From Nitrospirota bacterium (GTDB lineage: Bacteria; Nitrospirota_A; Leptospirillia; Leptospirillales; Leptospirillaceae), in assembly GCA_027335985.1 (NCBI GenBank), contig DAHWGX010000039.1:1-6632 (forward strand): a stretch of DNA of 6,632 bases. Reading direction: 5' to 3'. Positions within the stretch are counted from its first letter, which is position 1. Each line of letters begins with the position of its first letter. Positions 18 through 6,632 of the stretch are shown piece after piece. The notes under the pieces were generated by a model. It was not told where the DNA came from and searched no databases. It worked only from the letters and a program-made list of their open reading frames with translations. Both the position numbers and the translations under genes were made by a program.

Positions 18-695
18 ATGCGCCGATCATTTTGGTACACGGCCGTTCTGACGGTCGCGCTGGGCGGGGGGATTCTATTGCGTCTGGTTCCCGCCCGGGG
101 GGAAAACCAGGGGGGGATCGTTTCCGGAAGCTTCAACTCGGTTCCGTGGCAAATGGGAGCCACAGGACAGGGCAACCCGACGGCACAAACGAAAAAACGG
201 CCCTCCCTCCCGTCCGTCTCCCCTCCTCCCCAGGGAGCAGGCTTCCCAGGAACCCCTGGTGATCTGGCGACGACTTCCGGCAGTCACCGTTCGCTGGGTT
301 CTCTTTTTGAGCTGAAACGGCAGGAGACCCTTCTGAAAAGGGAAATCGCCATCAAAAAGCTGAAAGACCAGCTAAAGGGGGCCCCCGAAAAAAAAATCCT
401 CGACACGGGGACGCGCGGATCTCCCATGACTCTTCTAGCGGCGGGAATCGACGGGAACCGCTATGCCGTCATCGAATGGTCAGACGGAAGAAGAATTCGC
501 GTCCGACAGGGAGAAAACCTTCCGGACGGCACCCGCGTCGTCCGGATCGATGGCTCCGGAGTCTCGGTCAAAAAACGCGGCAAGACCGTGACCTACCCCT
601 ATGGAGAATCGTCTGGGGGAAGGCCATCCGGAAACACGCTCCGGTTTTCCGGTTTCTCTCCCCCTCCCTCTCCGATGACCGGAGGTCATCCGTGA
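18..695 (+). CDS. pilP: Type IVb pilus biogenesis protein PilP (R64-type)
   Basis: This 225-residue protein probably belongs to the inner-membrane alignment complex that links the secretin to the assembly ATPase and platform. Residues 1-28 form a signal peptide or membrane anchor (basic MRR, then a hydrophobic run ending PARG). Residues 41-90 are a Pro/Gly/Ser-rich linker. Residues 92-121 are a charged helical stretch starting SLGSLFELKRQETLL, which resembles the PilP 'T-x-GEL-x-x-L-x-S-x-T' region. Residues 135-196 are a small beta-rich domain (AAGIDGNRYAVIEWSDGRRI, then a GENLPDGTRVVRIDG pattern), the GspC/PilP-like C-terminal fold of this family. The last ~30 residues are low-complexity Gly/Pro/Ser, partly because they also encode the ribosome binding site and start of the next gene. 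The stop TGA overlaps the downstream GTG. Several homopolymers (G6 at 66-71 and 97-102, G7 at 110-116, A9 at 388-396) lie in the frame. Family assignment rests on recalled family patterns, not on a search. Confidence 0.83.
   Translation: MRRSFWYTAVLTVALGGGILLRLVPARGENQGGIVSGSFNSVPWQMGATGQGNPTAQTKKRPSLPSVSPPPQGAGFPGTPGDLATTSGSHRSLGSLFELKRQETLLKREIAIKKLKDQLKGAPEKKILDTGTRGSPMTLLAAGIDGNRYAVIEWSDGRRIRVRQGENLPDGTRVVRIDGSGVSVKKRGKTVTYPYGESSGGRPSGNTLRFSGFSPPPSPMTGGHP
681..685 (+). promoter_or_regulatory. Ribosome binding site of pilQ, deciding a GTG start
   Basis: GGAGG lies 6 bases before the GTG at 692, inside the end of pilP. It is the reason for choosing GTG 692 over in-frame codons as far up as 476, which would lie wholly inside pilP. 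Confidence 0.8.
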
Positions 696-3142
696 GAGTT
701 TTTGAACCCGTCCCCGGACGGGAGATCGGGGTGGTATCCGATCCGGATGGGGACCTTCCAGCCCCCTCCTCGCTGTTGGAGGCGCTTGTGGGATTGGAAG
801 ACGGCCGGCTCGTCATTCTGGAAAGCCTGAAGGGCGACAAGGAAGTTTTGTCCTATCGAAAGCATTTCTCGGATTATCTGGAAACCTTCGGGAAGGGAGG
901 AGACCTGAAGGTCAGGGCTACCTGGGTCCCTGAACCAGTTTTTCGTCACTTCGTCTCAACGCTCCGAGAACATTCTCCCCCCCTCCCGGAGCCTGATTTT
1001 TCTCCGGACCCGATCGTTCCGGAGGCGGAACAGGAATCCTCCGGAAGAATGGAGGAAGTGTTTCCGGAAACGGACGGGATTCCCATTCCCAAAGTCCTAT
1101 CGGAAAAAATCGTCGCGACTCCCGACGGACGCATTTTCGCGTCGGAAGATCTTCGCGGAAGGCCCGAATTCGATGTCTTTCTCGACCAAACGTCCATGAG
1201 GATGGATGCTCACGGAAAAATCGGCCAGTTCCGGGTTCTCTTCGTCTCCGACAGGGAATTGGGGGATCGACTCTCGAAGGAGCGGGGAGAAAGTCCGGAC
1301 GAGGACTGGCGCACAGTTCTGTCCGACATGGAGCTTCTTGCCCTTTCCCCTTCACAGAAAGATCAGTCGGTTTATCCAGATGAAAGCTCTGGGAAAACTC
1401 CGGAGGAGCCCTCTCCCGAACAAAATCGGGACGGCAAGCCTCCGTTCCGGAGCGACCCCTCGGCCGACGAATCCTTGGGACCCCCGGCCGCTCCTCCCCA
1501 AAAGGTCCTCCCGGAAGAAAAAGAAGGGGCTCTCGCCTCTCGGGAGGGCGACCCGGAATGTCTTTCGACGCCATCCGGGGGAACGATTCCGGACTTCCGG
1601 GCACCGGACGATATCGCCTCCATGGTCCTGCTCTTTCTGGACGGACGCTTCTATGTGTCACGGGAACATAAGACAAACCAGCACGTCAACTATTACTGCC
1701 GGCATTTCGTTCCAGAGCTTTGGCCCAAGATTTTCGGGGACAAGCCTGTTCCGAAACCGCAGTACGTCCCGTATGAACGCTTGAGGAAAATCCGTCTGGA
1801 AAATTTGCCAGAAGAGTCTGTCGCCGACGGATACAGGGCAGAGGGAGACGAGGCCCGGAAAATCATGGAGATCATCCGGGACGCCATCGCCAGAAAAGCT
1901 TCCGATATCCATCTCCGGGTCGAACGGGACCGAACGAGAATCCTTTTGAGGATCCACGGTTGGCTCAAGCCCGTACAGACCCTGACCCATGATGAAGGAG
2001 AACGGCTTGCCCGGATCGTCTACAACACAATGCTCGATTCCTCCGGTCGGGACAACATGTTTTCCGACAAGAAACCTCAGGACGGACAGTTTCGGCAGGA
2101 CTACCTTCCCCGGGGGACGTTCAACATCCGGGAGTTTCACGCGCCTACGGGAGGGACGGGCCTCGGGACCATCACCATGGTCCTCCGTCTCCAGTATGGG
2201 TCCGGAACGGCGGAGGCCAGCGCACAGGATATCGATACCCTGGGCTATGGGGCGGATCATCTGGCGCAATTGCGGTATCTTATGGGATTGTCTTACGGAA
2301 TCGTCCTTTTTTCGGGGCCCATGGGATCCGGAAAATCCACTTCCATGGCGTCGGTTCTCTCGATCGTTCTGTCGATGAACCCGCTCGAGGAGGGGAGAGG
2401 CCTTCATCTCGCGACGCTCGAAGATCCTCCGGAGTATGTGATCCCCACGGCCAGCCAGATCGCCGTTCCGGGTGGGCAGTTTTCCGAGGTTCTGGGGCGC
2501 ATCATGCGTTTTGATGCGAACCTTCTGATGATCGGGGAGATCCGGGACGAATCAACGGCCGAAAAAGCCGTCGAGGGGGCCATGAGCGGTCATGTGGTTT
2601 ACTCGACCGTTCATGCGAACGACGTTCTTTCCATTCCCCGACGTCTAGACGGATTGAAGGTCCGCCGGGATCTCCTGTGCGATCCGACAATTTTTCGCGG
2701 CATGGTGTGCCAGCGGCTCGTCCCCCTTCTTTGTCCCGATTGCAGGCTCCCTTGGGAGGAAGCGGAAAGAGCTGGAATCTTGCGGCCGGATCTTTTAAAG
2801 CGCCTGGAAGACGTCTCTGCGGATCCGGAAGAAGTTTTTTTTCACCGCGACGGTGGATGCGGCACCTGCAACGGGCAGGGAATCACCGGGAGGACGATCG
2901 TTGCGGAAATTCTCATTCCCGATCAGGAAATTCTGGATCTGGTTGCGGGAGGACGCATGACGGATGCCTGGCGCTACTTCTCGGAGAAACTCGAAGGCCG
3001 CACGATGATGGATCACGCGCTTGAAAAAGTCCGGAGAGGGGCCGTCGATCCGCGCGATGTCGAGGCTCGTCTCGGATGGATTCATAAGGGATCTCTCGAC
3101 AGCCGGACGATCCGGGAAATTATCGGAGGGCTTTCGTCGTGA
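692..3142 (+). CDS. pilQ: Type IVb pilus assembly ATPase PilQ (GspE/PilB-like), long N-terminal extension
   Basis: This is the cytoplasmic hexameric ATPase that powers pilus extension, 816 residues from GTG 692. The C-terminal half is a typical secretion ATPase: an N2-type domain at ~385-500 with the ASDIHL signature (403-408), Walker A GPMGSGKST (542-550, Lys548), an Asp box TLEDPPEY (575-582), Walker B with catalytic Glu in LLMIGEIRDE (611-620, Glu616), and a His box STVHAND (638-644). A tetracysteine zinc site follows: CPDC at 681-684 and CGTC at 723-726, then the usual G-x-TGRTIVAEIL. The zinc site suggests an extension ATPase rather than a PilT/DotB type. Residues 1-375 are unusual: three diverged ~60-residue blocks separated by acidic, Pro-rich linkers (94-138 and 200-306). 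From memory, R64 PilQ is near 520 residues, so this is about 300 longer. The start overlaps the pilP stop (GTGA) and the end overlaps the pilR start in the same way, implying translational coupling. Confidence 0.9.
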   Translation: MRVFEPVPGREIGVVSDPDGDLPAPSSLLEALVGLEDGRLVILESLKGDKEVLSYRKHFSDYLETFGKGGDLKVRATWVPEPVFRHFVSTLREHSPPLPEPDFSPDPIVPEAEQESSGRMEEVFPETDGIPIPKVLSEKIVATPDGRIFASEDLRGRPEFDVFLDQTSMRMDAHGKIGQFRVLFVSDRELGDRLSKERGESPDEDWRTVLSDMELLALSPSQKDQSVYPDESSGKTPEEPSPEQNRDGKPPFRSDPSADESLGPPAAPPQKVLPEEKEGALASREGDPECLSTPSGGTIPDFRAPDDIASMVLLFLDGRFYVSREHKTNQHVNYYCRHFVPELWPKIFGDKPVPKPQYVPYERLRKIRLENLPEESVADGYRAEGDEARKIMEIIRDAIARKASDIHLRVERDRTRILLRIHGWLKPVQTLTHDEGERLARIVYNTMLDSSGRDNMFSDKKPQDGQFRQDYLPRGTFNIREFHAPTGGTGLGTITMVLRLQYGSGTAEASAQDIDTLGYGADHLAQLRYLMGLSYGIVLFSGPMGSGKSTSMASVLSIVLSMNPLEEGRGLHLATLEDPPEYVIPTASQIAVPGGQFSEVLGRIMRFDANLLMIGEIRDESTAEKAVEGAMSGHVVYSTVHANDVLSIPRRLDGLKVRRDLLCDPTIFRGMVCQRLVPLLCPDCRLPWEEAERAGILRPDLLKRLEDVSADPEEVFFHRDGGCGTCNGQGITGRTIVAEILIPDQEILDLVAGGRMTDAWRYFSEKLEGRTMMDHALEKVRRGAVDPRDVEARLGWIHKGSLDSRTIREIIGGLSS
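3124..3130 (+). promoter_or_regulatory. Ribosome binding site of pilR
   Basis: CGGAGGG lies 8 bases before the GTG at 3139, within the last codons of pilQ. It supports the GTG start that overlaps the pilQ stop codon. Confidence 0.7.
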
Positions 3143-4227
3143 ATCCAATATCCGTCTCCGGCCACCTCCATTTATTGAAAAAGAGACTTTCCTTCGGGCC
3201 GGGCGTTCGACGGAAGTTCTACGCCGACCTGGCCTCCATTCTCCGGACAGACTCGTCGACCGCCCCGGTCCAGATCCGTGTCGCGATCGAGGAGTTCAAG
3301 AAGCTTCCCGGGGCTCCCAAGCCTGCTCTTTCGGAAATCGGGGCGGGACTCGGACGCGGTCTCGATTTCTCGAGAGCGATCGAGAATCTGACTCCTGAAT
3401 CCGAATCTATGATTCTCCATGCGGCGGAGTCCACCGGGGATCCCAAGGTACTTGTACGCCTTCTCTCGACACTTGCCGCGAATATGGATGAAACCCGGAA
3501 AATCCGGAGAACCTTTCTGGGCGCTCTCCGGGAGCCTTCCTTTCTGTTGCTGAACGCGGGGGCGGTTACCGTCTATATTTCGGATTCTCTCTTGCCCAAG
3601 ATTTTCCAGTCATTCAAAATTTCCAGCGATCGCCTGTTCGGTTTGGCGCGATTCTCCTTCGACCTTTTTTCCTTTGTGCAGCATTTCTGGGTTTTGATCG
3701 TCCTCTCTCCTTTTGTCGGAATTCTTGTCGTGGGGTGGTCTCTGAGGCGGGAATTTCCGGGTCGACGTCTTCTTGACCGTCTTCCTCCCTGGTCCATCTA
3801 CCGGATGATGCTGGGAACGGAGTTTCTGCTGGGGTTGTCCGCCATGCTGGAATCGGGCATTCCTGTCATGGCCGCCTTCGAACAGATTCGAAAAACAGCG
3901 CCGCCGTATCTCCGGGCGCGGATTGTTCCCATTATGAAAATATACAGTCGTACAGGAAAGTTGGGCGAAGCCATGGAAAGGAGCCGGACACGGTTTCCGT
4001 CGGAAGAGATCATTGTTCGCCTGTCCCTGAGGGAAAAGTATGGCGAGTTGGGGCAGGCCCTCTCAGAGTTTGCGCGGGACTGGAAGGAGGAGGGACTCCC
4101 GAAAATCGAGCGCCAGGCCCAGTATCTGAACTACGGGGCCATGACGCTGGCCACCGTGGCAATCGGCCTTCTGGGGATCGGGATACTCCAGATCGTCCAG
4201 CAGGCGATGGGGGGGCTGGGAATCTGA
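3139..4227 (+). CDS. pilR: Type IVb pilus inner-membrane platform protein PilR (GspF/PilC family)
   Basis: This 362-residue polytopic protein anchors the assembly ATPase to the inner membrane and guides pilin subunits into the growing filament. It has the duplicated T2SSF architecture of the family. The first cytoplasmic helical domain is at ~26-125 (GVRRKFYADLASILRTDSST; then GAGLGRGLDFSRAIE and the HAAESTGDP turn). It is followed by hydrophobic segments near 134-152 and 180-200. The second T2SSF domain is at ~222-320 (EFLLGLSAMLESGIPVMAAF; RTGKLGEAMERS). A final membrane helix lies at ~332-354. Length and topology match R64 PilR and related proteins (usually 350-400 residues). The start is GTG overlapping the pilQ TGA, so production is probably coupled to pilQ. 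A G7 run at 4209-4215 sits in the last codons; slippage there would alter only the extreme C-terminus. Nothing essential appears to be missing. Confidence 0.9.
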   Translation: MNPISVSGHLHLLKKRLSFGPGVRRKFYADLASILRTDSSTAPVQIRVAIEEFKKLPGAPKPALSEIGAGLGRGLDFSRAIENLTPESESMILHAAESTGDPKVLVRLLSTLAANMDETRKIRRTFLGALREPSFLLLNAGAVTVYISDSLLPKIFQSFKISSDRLFGLARFSFDLFSFVQHFWVLIVLSPFVGILVVGWSLRREFPGRRLLDRLPPWSIYRMMLGTEFLLGLSAMLESGIPVMAAFEQIRKTAPPYLRARIVPIMKIYSRTGKLGEAMERSRTRFPSEEIIVRLSLREKYGELGQALSEFARDWKEEGLPKIERQAQYLNYGAMTLATVAIGLLGIGILQIVQQAMGGLGI

Positions 4228-4291: not shown

Positions 4292-4861
4292 ATGACAAAA
4301 ACTATTGTCTGGTGGAAACAAAATCGACTTCAAGTTCTCCGGACCCTGTCAGATGAGCGAGGCGGGGTCGACCAGGGCCCGATGGGCATCCTTCTGGGGA
4401 TTGGTCTTGGGATCATTCTCCTAGCCGCCTTGGTGGGCGTTTTCAAGTTCGCTTTCTCGAGTACGACCAGCGCCATCTCCTCTTCCGGAGCGTTCGAAAT
4501 TCAGACCGGCGTCCGGCAGGTGGCGAGCCCAGGAAATTATGGGACCGGCGACTTGACCCCCGCCCTCATTTCTGCGGCCTCCGTGCCAAGCAACATGATC
4601 GTCCCGGGAAACACATCGACGCTCCAGGGGCCGACAGGAACCTCCTTCTACACGGTGACCGGAAATTACAGCACATTTTCGATCACCCTTTCCGGAATAA
4701 CGTCCTCAGCTTGCATGAGGATCCTAGAACAGACGACTGGGGGAAATTCCTGGTATCAGGTCATGGTGAACGGGTCGTCGATCACCCAGCCCGTGACGGT
4801 GCAAATGGCCCAGGGAGTCTGCTCTTCCGGAATGGACACGATCACCTGGATTTCAGACTGA
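4292..4861 (+). CDS. pilS: Type IVb major prepilin PilS
   Basis: This 189-residue protein is the likely main pilus subunit. It has a ~24-residue basic leader, a Gly-containing cleavage region (ERGG at 22-25), then a hydrophobic helix at ~31-55 (MGILLGIGLGIILLAALVGV). The rest is a Ser/Thr/Gly-rich globular domain. The C-terminal half follows the PilS pattern: YGTGDLTPALISAASVPSNM at 83-102, TSSACMRI around Cys141, and a second cysteine in GVCSSGMDTITW (Cys177). The pair Cys141/Cys177 would form the disulfide loop of type IVb pilins. Odd feature: whether cleavage follows Gly24 or Gly25, position +5 of the mature protein is Gly or Pro, not the usual Glu. It follows an AT-rich gap with its own probable promoter and is followed closely by pilM. 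Family assignment is from recognised motifs; the exact cleavage site is uncertain. Confidence 0.88.
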   Translation: MTKTIVWWKQNRLQVLRTLSDERGGVDQGPMGILLGIGLGIILLAALVGVFKFAFSSTTSAISSSGAFEIQTGVRQVASPGNYGTGDLTPALISAASVPSNMIVPGNTSTLQGPTGTSFYTVTGNYSTFSITLSGITSSACMRILEQTTGGNSWYQVMVNGSSITQPVTVQMAQGVCSSGMDTITWISD

Positions 4862-4876: not shown

Positions 4877-5356
4877 ATGTGGCTTCTCCTGGCAATACTG
4901 CCTCTCGCTCTCCTTTTGGGCGGGATGTTCCTGACTGTTTCGCATACGAGCGTTCCGCTCCTTGAAAACGCGAACCGGATCAATCTCGAGGCGAATCAGG
5001 AAGCGACCCTGTTCCAGCTGTATAGGGAAGCGGTTGCAAACTATCTCGACGGGAACCCGGGTTTTTCCGGAACGGTTCCTCTTTCCGCATTGGTCCTTCC
5101 AGTCGGATTGGTCATTCCGCCGTTGTTCAAAAATAGCGTCTCGGGAGGTGTCGCTTGGGTCTGGATCGCCCCGTCTCCCTCACTCATTTATTCACCGGAC
5201 GTGGTGGTGGGACCGGAATTTACCAAGTCTTTCGGATCGCTTCTGGTCGGAGTGAACAAAAAAGGAGTTTTTGTGTCTCCCTCGGGAATTCCTGTTTCCA
5301 TCAGCGTTCCATCGTTCATTCCGAACGGTGCCATTGTGTCTTTCTGGGAGGGTTGA
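4877..5356 (+). CDS. pilM: PilM-type type IVb pilus accessory protein
   Basis: This 159-residue protein has one N-terminal membrane helix (residues 2-20, very Leu-rich, no basic residue before it) and a probably periplasmic domain. Residues 43-78 match the recalled PilM pattern of a 'YR-x-AV-x-x-Y-x-x-x-NPG-x-x-GTV-x-x-x-x-L-x-LP' block (FQLYREAVANYL, then NPGFSGTVPLSALVLP). The rest is hydrophobic beta-rich sequence with no cysteines. R64 PilM is about 145 residues with the same layout, and its precise role in pilus formation is not well defined; it is not the actin-like PilM of type IVa pili. In R64, pilM precedes the secretin gene pilN, whereas here it sits between the two pilin genes. The stop overlaps the pilV start region (TGATGATG), so pilV translation is probably coupled. 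A minor pilin-like protein without a leader is the main alternative. Confidence 0.75.
   Translation: MWLLLAILPLALLLGGMFLTVSHTSVPLLENANRINLEANQEATLFQLYREAVANYLDGNPGFSGTVPLSALVLPVGLVIPPLFKNSVSGGVAWVWIAPSPSLIYSPDVVVGPEFTKSFGSLLVGVNKKGVFVSPSGIPVSISVPSFIPNGAIVSFWEG
5346..5352 (+). promoter_or_regulatory. Ribosome binding site of pilV
   Basis: GGGAGGG at the end of pilM serves two adjacent ATG codons, 5356 and 5359. Its GGAGG core is 4 bases from the first and 7 from the second, so 5359 has the better spacing. The choice changes the protein by one Met only. Confidence 0.65.
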
Positions 5357-5358
5357 TG

Positions 5359-6393
5359 ATGACCAAACGTTATTTTATGAAATTCTTGTCGGACGATCGG
5401 TTTTCTGATCGGGGAAACTCATCTTTACTGGGAATGACTCTTGCAACAGCTCTTGGATTGGTCCTGATTTCGAACACGGTTCCTTTTTGGCTCGAAACCC
5501 AGCATCGCGCGCTCATGGACCAGACGACGGCGCAGCAAATCCGGCAAGTCTCGGACGCCCTGGCCGGGTATACCAAGGCCTATGCCGGAGCCATCGAAGG
5601 AGTTGCGACGGCCACCAAACCTGCGGTGATTCCTGTGTCCTTTCTTGTGAATACAGGGTTTCTCCCCACGGGGACAAGCTCCGTAGATCCTTATGGCCAG
5701 ACGGTGGTCGGGGAAATTCTTCAACCTAGTCCTGGCATTCTTGTCGGAGCTGTGGTGACTCAGGGAGGAACGCCTCCGGCCGGCTCGCATCTGAACCAGC
5801 TCGCGACCCTGATTGGGGCTCAGGGAGGCTTTGTCCCCACCTCAGATATCCAGTCCCTCCCCGGAATCTGCGGAACGAACTGCTATCAAGGCTCCGGTGG
5901 AACATGGAAGGCGAGTTTCTCCCAGTATCCCTTCACTGGAGTGGGACCGGGAAGCTTGATCGCCCTTCAGAGTTACAATTCAAACAACCTTCCTCAGGAC
6001 TTTCTGTATCGCTCGAATGTTCCAGGATTTCCCCAGGCGAACCAGATGCAGACCAATATCAATATGAACGGGAACAACCTGAACAATGCCGGAACCGTCA
6101 ATACCTATAATCTCACGAGTCCGAACGGGACCATCTCGACCCAGGCAATCAACACGAATGGACAACCAATCTACTCGGGCGCCTGGTTCCCCTCGCAGGC
6201 CATTTGGATTGAGACCCCTTGCGGTTGGGCCTATCTTTCGGCAGGTGACTATTTTAACTGTGGGCCGCAAGGAGGCTTTGCCTGGAGCGGGATTATCAAT
6301 TCTCAGGGACTGGCCTATAGCACATGTTCCCAAAATGGAGCTAACGGAAGCCCAGCCTCAACCCTTGAATGCTATGAATCATGGCATTGGTAA
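5359..6393 (+). CDS. pilV: Shufflon-type tip adhesin / minor prepilin PilV
   Basis: This 344-residue protein is the likely pilus-tip subunit that recognises the recipient or surface. The leader ends DRG at 17-19. The next residues are NSSLLGM and a hydrophobic helix at ~22-45; +5 after cleavage is Leu, not Glu. Residues 46-165 follow the shufflon N-terminal constant domain: a helical ALMDQTTAQQIRQVSDALAG region, ITV-like PVSFLVNTGFLPTGTSS, DPYGQ, then LNQLATLIGAQGGFVPT. Residues 230-252 (MQTNINMNGNNLNNAG onward) are the hallmark 'M-x-T-N-x-x-M-x-GNN-x-x-NAG' of PilV just before the variable region. The remaining ~92 residues are Trp/Gly/Asn-rich with four cysteines (288, 301, 323, 338) and end ESWHW. 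Two more cysteines occur at 171 and 175. In R64 this C-terminal part is exchanged by Rci-mediated inversion; whether this happens here depends on the convergent - strand frame downstream. PilV identity is solid; the constant/variable border is not determinable from this window. Confidence 0.9.
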   Translation: MTKRYFMKFLSDDRFSDRGNSSLLGMTLATALGLVLISNTVPFWLETQHRALMDQTTAQQIRQVSDALAGYTKAYAGAIEGVATATKPAVIPVSFLVNTGFLPTGTSSVDPYGQTVVGEILQPSPGILVGAVVTQGGTPPAGSHLNQLATLIGAQGGFVPTSDIQSLPGICGTNCYQGSGGTWKASFSQYPFTGVGPGSLIALQSYNSNNLPQDFLYRSNVPGFPQANQMQTNINMNGNNLNNAGTVNTYNLTSPNGTISTQAINTNGQPIYSGAWFPSQAIWIETPCGWAYLSAGDYFNCGPQGGFAWSGIINSQGLAYSTCSQNGANGSPASTLECYESWHW

Positions 6394-6465
6394 GTTCAAT
6401 GAAGGTATGCCAAGAAAGTAACGAATATCCTATAGAATCCTCATAGGGCTCTCATGTCTCAGATT
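6394..6465. other. Short convergent gap between two opposed stop codons
   Basis: This 72-base, AT-richer stretch lies between the pilV stop and the stop of the - strand frame. It holds a weak 5-bp stem (CCTAT 6429-6433 with ATAGG 6443-6447, nine-base loop) but no GC-rich hairpin with a T-run on either strand, so there is no convincing terminator. The two reading frames on either side both end in TTGGTAA, giving a 7-bp inverted repeat (6387-6393 and 6466-6472) that encodes Trp-stop in each. Confidence 0.4.
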
Positions 6466-6632
6466 TTACCAACCTCCATTTGGACCAGAAGCACATGGAA
6501 CAAGAACATAGCCAAAATCATTACCGCCATTACCTGTGCTGTTATTCGCAAAAGTCCATGTGCCATTGATTCTTCCTCCCCGCACAGTCTGCGCTCCAAA
6601 AGGTGCCAAACACAATGGGCTCGATACGTTTT
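6466..6632 (-). CDS. Antisense alternative PilV-like C-terminal segment (partial, candidate shufflon piece)
   Basis: Read on the - strand, a frame runs open from the window edge to a TAA at 6466-6468, giving 54 visible residues without an internal start that looks real. It reads NVSSPLCLAPFGAQTV at the edge, then GTWTFANNSTGNGGNDFGY, and ends VPCASGPNGGW. Gly/Asn-rich composition with Trp, paired cysteines and a terminal Trp resemble the end of the expressed PilV, and it faces pilV tail to tail. In R64, shufflon segments carry two such promoterless, startless C-terminal ends in opposite orientation, which this would match. Being promoterless, it would be expressed only after inversion. What weakens the call: it is short, the crossover repeat that should lie 5' of it is outside the window, and no long inverted repeat with pilV is visible here. 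Alternatives are the 3' end of an unrelated convergent gene or chance. Confidence 0.55.
   Translation of the reverse strand, partial: NVSSPLCLAPFGAQTVRGGRINGTWTFANNSTGNGGNDFGYVLVPCASGPNGGW

Follow-up and report, generated by a model that had tools for sequence, protein, structure and literature searches.

The window, by which we mean the whole 6,632-nt stretch of DNA analysed here, is an R64-like pil operon whose last gene is pilV. With a probability of about 0.86, judged from sequence comparison, it represents the left end of a locus at which PilV tails are swapped in the manner of a shufflon, in a Leptospirillum-type bacterium and probably on a conjugative element. Alternative ends occur on one constant PilV region, a tail lies antisense behind the gene, short crossover sites mark the joints, and a recombinase gene is adjacent in two relatives. 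If true, acidophilic iron oxidisers that serve in biomining would possess a programmed switch at the pilus tip; the locus also offers a recombinase and site pair unlike the Rci family, and it gives a possible reason for assembly breaks at such loci.

Results

The genes of the window run along the plus strand up to pilV, and a startless frame lies behind it on the minus strand:

18..695, plus strand, PilP-like open frame at the operon start, presumably so by its position alone (no Pfam match)
695..3142, plus strand, pilQ-type ATPase (PF00437, E 2.2e-59; mechanical frame from 476, start tentative)
3139..4227, plus strand, pilR-type inner-membrane protein (PF00482, E 6e-16)
4292..4861, plus strand, pilS-type major pilin (PF08805, E 3e-8)
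4877..5356, plus strand, pilM (PF07419, E 1.7e-22)
5356..6393 (start at 5356 or 5359), plus strand, pilV, minor pilin and tip adhesin, as currently arranged (PF04917; 72 homologues)
6148..6179, plus strand, crossover region, a 32-base block identical in the pilV of the relative G005, with core GACAACCAATC at 6161-6171 and central CAACCAA at 6163-6169
6172..6390, plus strand, active tail A, of family 4, shared with P0001 and, at 64/73, with P0004
6463..6632, minus strand, silent tail B (family 7), startless and cut by the window edge; joined to pilV in P0002

The PilV protein matches the Pfam family Shufflon_N at E 3e-25 and 89.8 bits (cut-off 27.5), and the PilV motif named in the original prediction stands at residues 230-240 as MQTNINMNGNN. 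No recombinase gene lies within the 6,632 nt. In the window pilM sits between pilS and pilV, in R64 far upstream; Pfam recognised no prepilin peptidase gene in the window, and R64 has one directly 5' of pilV. At the border of head and shaft, a 99-base stretch (6004-6102) has 75.8% DNA identity to pilV genes of enterobacterial plasmids. Plasmid records with a DNA match to the window number 252; all 20 listed cover 6004-6102 only, which is thus the sole part of the window with DNA similarity among the plasmid matches listed. Phage records yielded no DNA match to the window.

Translation of PilV stops at 6391-6393 and that of the minus-strand frame at 6463-6465, so that the last sense codon of the latter is 72 bases away from the PilV stop; the antisense frame stays open for 54 codons up to the window edge, just as had been described. 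The original prediction took this frame for an alternative PilV end on the strength of motif and composition; the conclusion holds, those arguments alone are insufficient, and an independent protein, P0002, suffices. Its first 274 residues are identical to the window PilV (an extra initial Met aside), it departs right after NGQPIYSG, and its end matches the minus-strand frame at 52 of 54 residues. P0001 has the window's tail and differs from the window PilV at 2 positions. Near-identical genes thus exist with two ends, the second of which lies silent and reversed in the window. Judged by the P0002 match, the startless antisense frame is evidently a spare PilV end and no chance frame, so that tail-to-tail alternative ends are indeed present here. 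From the length of the P0002 tail, the site belonging to tail B is expected near 6700-6712, about 70 bases past the window edge.

A scan of genome contigs matched 65 stretches, of which 1 encoded a relative (L001, from a Nitrospirae MAG, G001), and through it 21 Leptospirillia genomes were reached. Shufflon_N occurs in two of these 21, and the same two are the only ones among 395 Nitrospirota genomes. G005 is one contig of 2.56 Mb and contains the whole locus (L004):

8491-9513, plus strand, pilV
9804 to ~9530, minus strand, tail B, startless
10141 to 9848, minus strand, tail C, startless
10175-11194, plus strand, tyrosine recombinase (PF00589, E 1.1e-21)

Each of the two antisense tails starts at a closely similar, inverted site. 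Tails A, B and C of G005 resemble the tails of P0013 (58/62), P0012 (73/87) and P0021 (88/94), respectively, and in all three proteins the tail is joined to a head. In G012 (L021), four sites and three tails without start codons stand behind the recombinase gene, all pointing the same way; tail 3 belongs weakly (25/65) to the family of P0005 and P0008, and a Shufflon_N gene (pilV) was not found in the search of this genome. The contig ends inside the fourth site, perhaps on account of arrangements varying in the population. In this array (L021, 9170-9884), the TGA stop of tails 1 and 2 lies inside the next site (TGACAACCAAT), so the cassettes abut without a spacer. The inverted sites and tyrosine recombinase that had been anticipated are thus present in relatives (both in G005, the recombinase in G012) and not in the window itself.

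G001 encodes a PilV of the same family, and its genome has no exact copy of the site and no recombinase match within ~58 kb of pilV. The joint of L001 reads GGWIYSG and that of P0011, which has a similar tail (83/92), GQAIYSG, as if the switch had been frozen in L001. According to the database tables, the longest contig is 16,720 bases for PilV P0015 and for recombinase P0088 alike, which may hint at a shared contig.

The switch point between the window PilV and P0002 coincides with the site, and in the window this head-tail joint carries GACAACCAATC. This places the crossover, predicted to lie upstream of roughly 6230, at about 6148-6179. The 32-base block at the joint is the longest identical run between the pilV genes of the window and G005, which are 83% identical overall. 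Eight sites are known, one in the window, three in G005 and four in G012; they have CAACCAAT in common and mostly read GA-CAACCAA-TC, the listing having required CAACCAAT, which makes them the same there by construction. CAACCAAT has 8 copies in the three stretches searched (window, G005 and G012), each at a site and none away from a joint. CAACCAAT played no part in the first detection of the G005 sites, which lay inside the two longest of 70 inverted repeats in a 3-kb stretch. Of the exact inverted repeats in the G005 stretch whose copies are separated by more than 100 bases, the longest measures 17 nt, a length reached by none of 200 dinucleotide shuffles (mean 11.0, maximum 15). The joint encodes GQPI. 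GACAACCAATC has three further copies elsewhere in G005 and at least one copy in 13 of the 21 Leptospirillia genomes, and is therefore not diagnostic alone.

A search of 5.8 billion proteins with the window PilV returned 72 relatives, and a second search with 21 aligned PilVs gave 83 matches, among them no further close relatives of the window. The named organisms among P0001-P0033 are Leptospirillum, Leptospirales, Nitrospirota or Nitrospiraceae, which, with the Nitrospirae MAG, fits the iron-oxidising Nitrospirota host that had been suggested. Thirty-six PilV proteins (P0001-P0033 and those of the window, G005 and L001) were divided at the joint into constant region and tail; the shorter pieces P0034-P0036 and the more distant P0037-P0072 were left out. 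Ten of the 36 are without a GQ(P/A)I joint; L001, P0003, P0024, P0025 and P0031 were split at strings picked by eye and the remaining five at an LPI-type motif. Together with six silent tails the set comes to 42 tails, which fall into 11 families, three with a single member. In thirty PilV pairs, which are not independent of one another, the last 200 residues of the constant region are at least 97% identical; the tail families differ in 23 of these pairs and agree in 7; where both sides have the GQ(P/A)I joint, the tails are of different families in 19 of 26 pairs. Every one of the 42 tails has 2 or 4 cysteines (window tail B and P0010 being incomplete), which suggests small disulfide-held binding domains.

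Tails could also have been exchanged between strains by homologous recombination or gene conversion, in which case old partial duplicates would account for the antisense tails and the integrase would be a bystander. Similar tails do occur on constant regions just 77-81% identical (P0025/P0031, tail 76/76 on 154/200; L001/P0027, 87/92 on 159/200; P0003/P0025, tail 73/76), and P0003, which has the window's constant region, diverges from residue 242, upstream of the site, so exchange away from the site happens too. As an account of the whole locus we nevertheless consider this improbable: the window/P0002 switch falls at the site itself, the sequence common to all eight sites is about 11 bases, which is short for homologous recombination, and recombinases 65% identical to each other adjoin tail arrays in two genomes.

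Those two genomes, G005 and G012, are the only ones of the 21 Leptospirillia genomes with a close recombinase. The catalytic set of tyrosine recombinases is R, K, H, R, H/W and Y. Residues R181, K206, H267, R270, H293 and Y302, which we take to be the catalytic ones, are the same in all 16 aligned recombinases, Rci among them, and with the PF00589 match they mark the enzyme as a tyrosine recombinase. Over 156 residues the G005 enzyme is 24% identical to R64 Rci. In a tree of 49 proteins, a shufflon-side clade (16 rows, 98/99), chosen by sequence similarity and with the locus known for two members (G005 and G012), and five intermediates are joined at 100/100; 13 integrases picked from the homologue table, most with PF13356, come next, again at 100/100. 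Rci and its relatives fall outside, together with five other Leptospirillia integrases. The tree tool warned that long branches meet, so that the depth of placement is uncertain. The nearest relatives beyond the clade itself and the intermediates are integrases with PF13356 and PF00589, 37-43% identical (120 listed of 1023), whereas the shufflon-side members P0073-P0102 (329-373 residues) show no PF13356 in the homologue table. The recombinase also matches a PHROG integrase family. Two other Leptospirillia loci, L016 (G001:C39) and L020 (G014:C80), encode recombinases that stand beside Rci in the tree (100/99, in a joint group of 6); L016 lies at a contig start, and the pilV of G001 is on another contig.

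Viral contigs searched with the window PilV and the PilV alignment contained no PilV relative; with the recombinase alignment, a relative was encoded in 198 of 246 matching stretches, the best of the 80 kept being 40% identical. Plasmid records with a protein match number 139 for PilV and 147 for the recombinase, all below 60% identity, and the best-ranked recombinase among the matches listed is at 39.4%; there is thus no indication that the clade occurs on the plasmids searched.

Very improbable, to our mind, is a recombinase that acts chiefly as in integrons, by excision and insertion of tail cassettes, and not by inversion. In favour of this, the spare tails follow one another in the same orientation, three of them in G012 and two in G005, the G012 sites are direct repeats with the stops of tails 1 and 2 inside the next one, the enzyme groups with PF13356-type integrases and matches a PHROG integrase family, and some tails sit on divergent constant regions. 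Against it, the active tail of G005 and that of the window run counter to their spare tails, which is the geometry of inversion, and passages of PMC11852207 describe R64 Rci, though another enzyme, as thought to be limited to inversions.

Discussion

The shufflon-like reading would work as follows. PilV has a fixed pilin head and shaft with a short exchangeable tail, and behind the gene, on the other strand, stand spare tails that lack start codons and open with almost the same short site. The recombinase, encoded just downstream in relatives, would bring together the site in pilV and the opposed site of one spare tail and exchange strands at the 7-base core, the DNA between them would flip, and the spare tail would become the new PilV end, in frame through G-Q-P-I. 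With its three sites, G005 could reach at least three PilV forms. We infer that the recombinase uses these sites and that inversion is the event.

Within 60 kb around the G005 pilV, 52 open frames were listed, and 20 were scanned beside pilV and the recombinase, 13 of them with a Pfam match. The matches include a TrwC relaxase, a TrwB-type coupling protein, TraI, a ParM-like protein, a secretin, PilO and a topoisomerase, with the relaxase, coupling-protein and other conjugation genes within about 25 kb; by gene content, the setting would be an integrated conjugative element. PilV is the tip adhesin of the R64-like thin pilus. Given this and the conjugation genes nearby in G005, a tail switch would likely change the partner cell or surface that is bound, with the choice of mating partner as its probable role and adhesion to minerals or biofilm as a less favoured alternative. 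In R64, PilV ends set the choice of recipient via its lipopolysaccharide, according to passages of PMC11852207.

Several features agree with R64. Its PilV (IncI1) is homologous to the window type (30% over 269 residues), and both loci have a Shufflon_N constant region and alternative C-terminal ends, with startless opposed frames in the window and G005. In G005, as in R64, inverted sites at the head-tail joint lie in the interval from pilV to the recombinase (the window has one site), the tyrosine-recombinase gene lies downstream in the direction of pilV, and the surroundings hold thin-pilus and conjugation genes, as expected of a conjugative element. The sites themselves differ: R64 sfx is GTGCCAATCCGGT, in 7 copies (three forward, four reverse), the Leptospirillum-type site GACAACCAATC, and only CCAATC is common to both, in another reading frame and possibly by chance. 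Parts of the literature give sfx as GTGCCAATCCGGTNNGTGGA (PMC5430464) and as a 7-base core between two 12-base arms (PMC11852207). Rci has 384 residues and stands elsewhere in the tree, and the G005 and G012 enzymes are not recombinases of the Rci family, which is marked by an extra C-terminal part. All four G012 sites point one way and the two G005 spare tails share one direction, whereas R64 is mixed; the joint residues are GQPI here and CQSGT in R64 (frame read from sequence). Of the predicted switching by Rci at sfx, the tyrosine recombinase therefore stands, and close kinship to Rci and sfx do not. The locus appears to work like the R64 shufflon with an unrelated recombinase and a different crossover site, which suggests that evolution arrived at this device more than once, with different recombinases. 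At somewhat less than even odds, we would go further: shufflon logic may have arisen at least twice, here by recruitment of a PF13356-related integrase and an unrelated site, and the one-way arrays may be a pool of small adhesin cassettes that pass between Leptospirillum-type lineages, something between a shufflon and a cassette array. A survey of 14 further shufflon invertases, as passages of PMC11852207 present it, follows the same logic of enzyme and adjacent repeats, in a search seeded by Rci homology.

The original prediction knew of no description of such a switch in this lineage. We found no published account of a Leptospirillum PilV switch, in a search that most subscription papers fall outside, so one may exist; no paper turned up that combines phase variation, DNA inversion and Nitrospirae, and the listings and passages on shufflons in Acidithiobacillus describe no such switch. 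PMC11852207 is not among the literature naming both shufflon and Leptospirillum. In the available passages of Leptospirillum texts, 'shufflon' serves as a recombinase label only, and those on L. ferriphilum Sp-Cl report type IV pilus and Dot/Icm genes and no inversion. The label 'shufflon-specific recombinase' was rejected as evidence because, in passages of PMC3414803, prophage members of the Rci family mostly bear it without a shufflon. WP_036082283.1 of L. ferriphilum, so labelled and 4.2-fold up in NaCl-adapted cells in part of PMC9053815, is accordingly a lead only.

Shufflon_N alone was also rejected as evidence, since no recombinase is listed at five of six plasmid loci, in an incomplete gene table and with three of the six stretches ending within 1.6 kb of pilV; none is listed for pA506 either. 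At the sixth locus (Acetobacter), the label 'fdxN element site-specific recombinase', taken as given, stands at the pilS position. On the Methylovorus glucosotrophus plasmid pMsip01 (L111, 6500-8809), a second pilV fragment lies antisense behind pilV within long perfect inverted repeats, and opposed TTGCCAATCCGGT copies resemble the R64 sfx core; a Rci-type shufflon is possible there, the stretch ending before any recombinase. Among distant PilV proteins (P0038-P0050, P0053-P0058 and P0200-P0210, some named Acidithiobacillus or Sulfuriferula), near-identical constant parts carry differing ends, and several switch after CQGGSW-like residues reminiscent of the CQSGTW of R64, so Rci-type shufflons may occur in other acidophiles.
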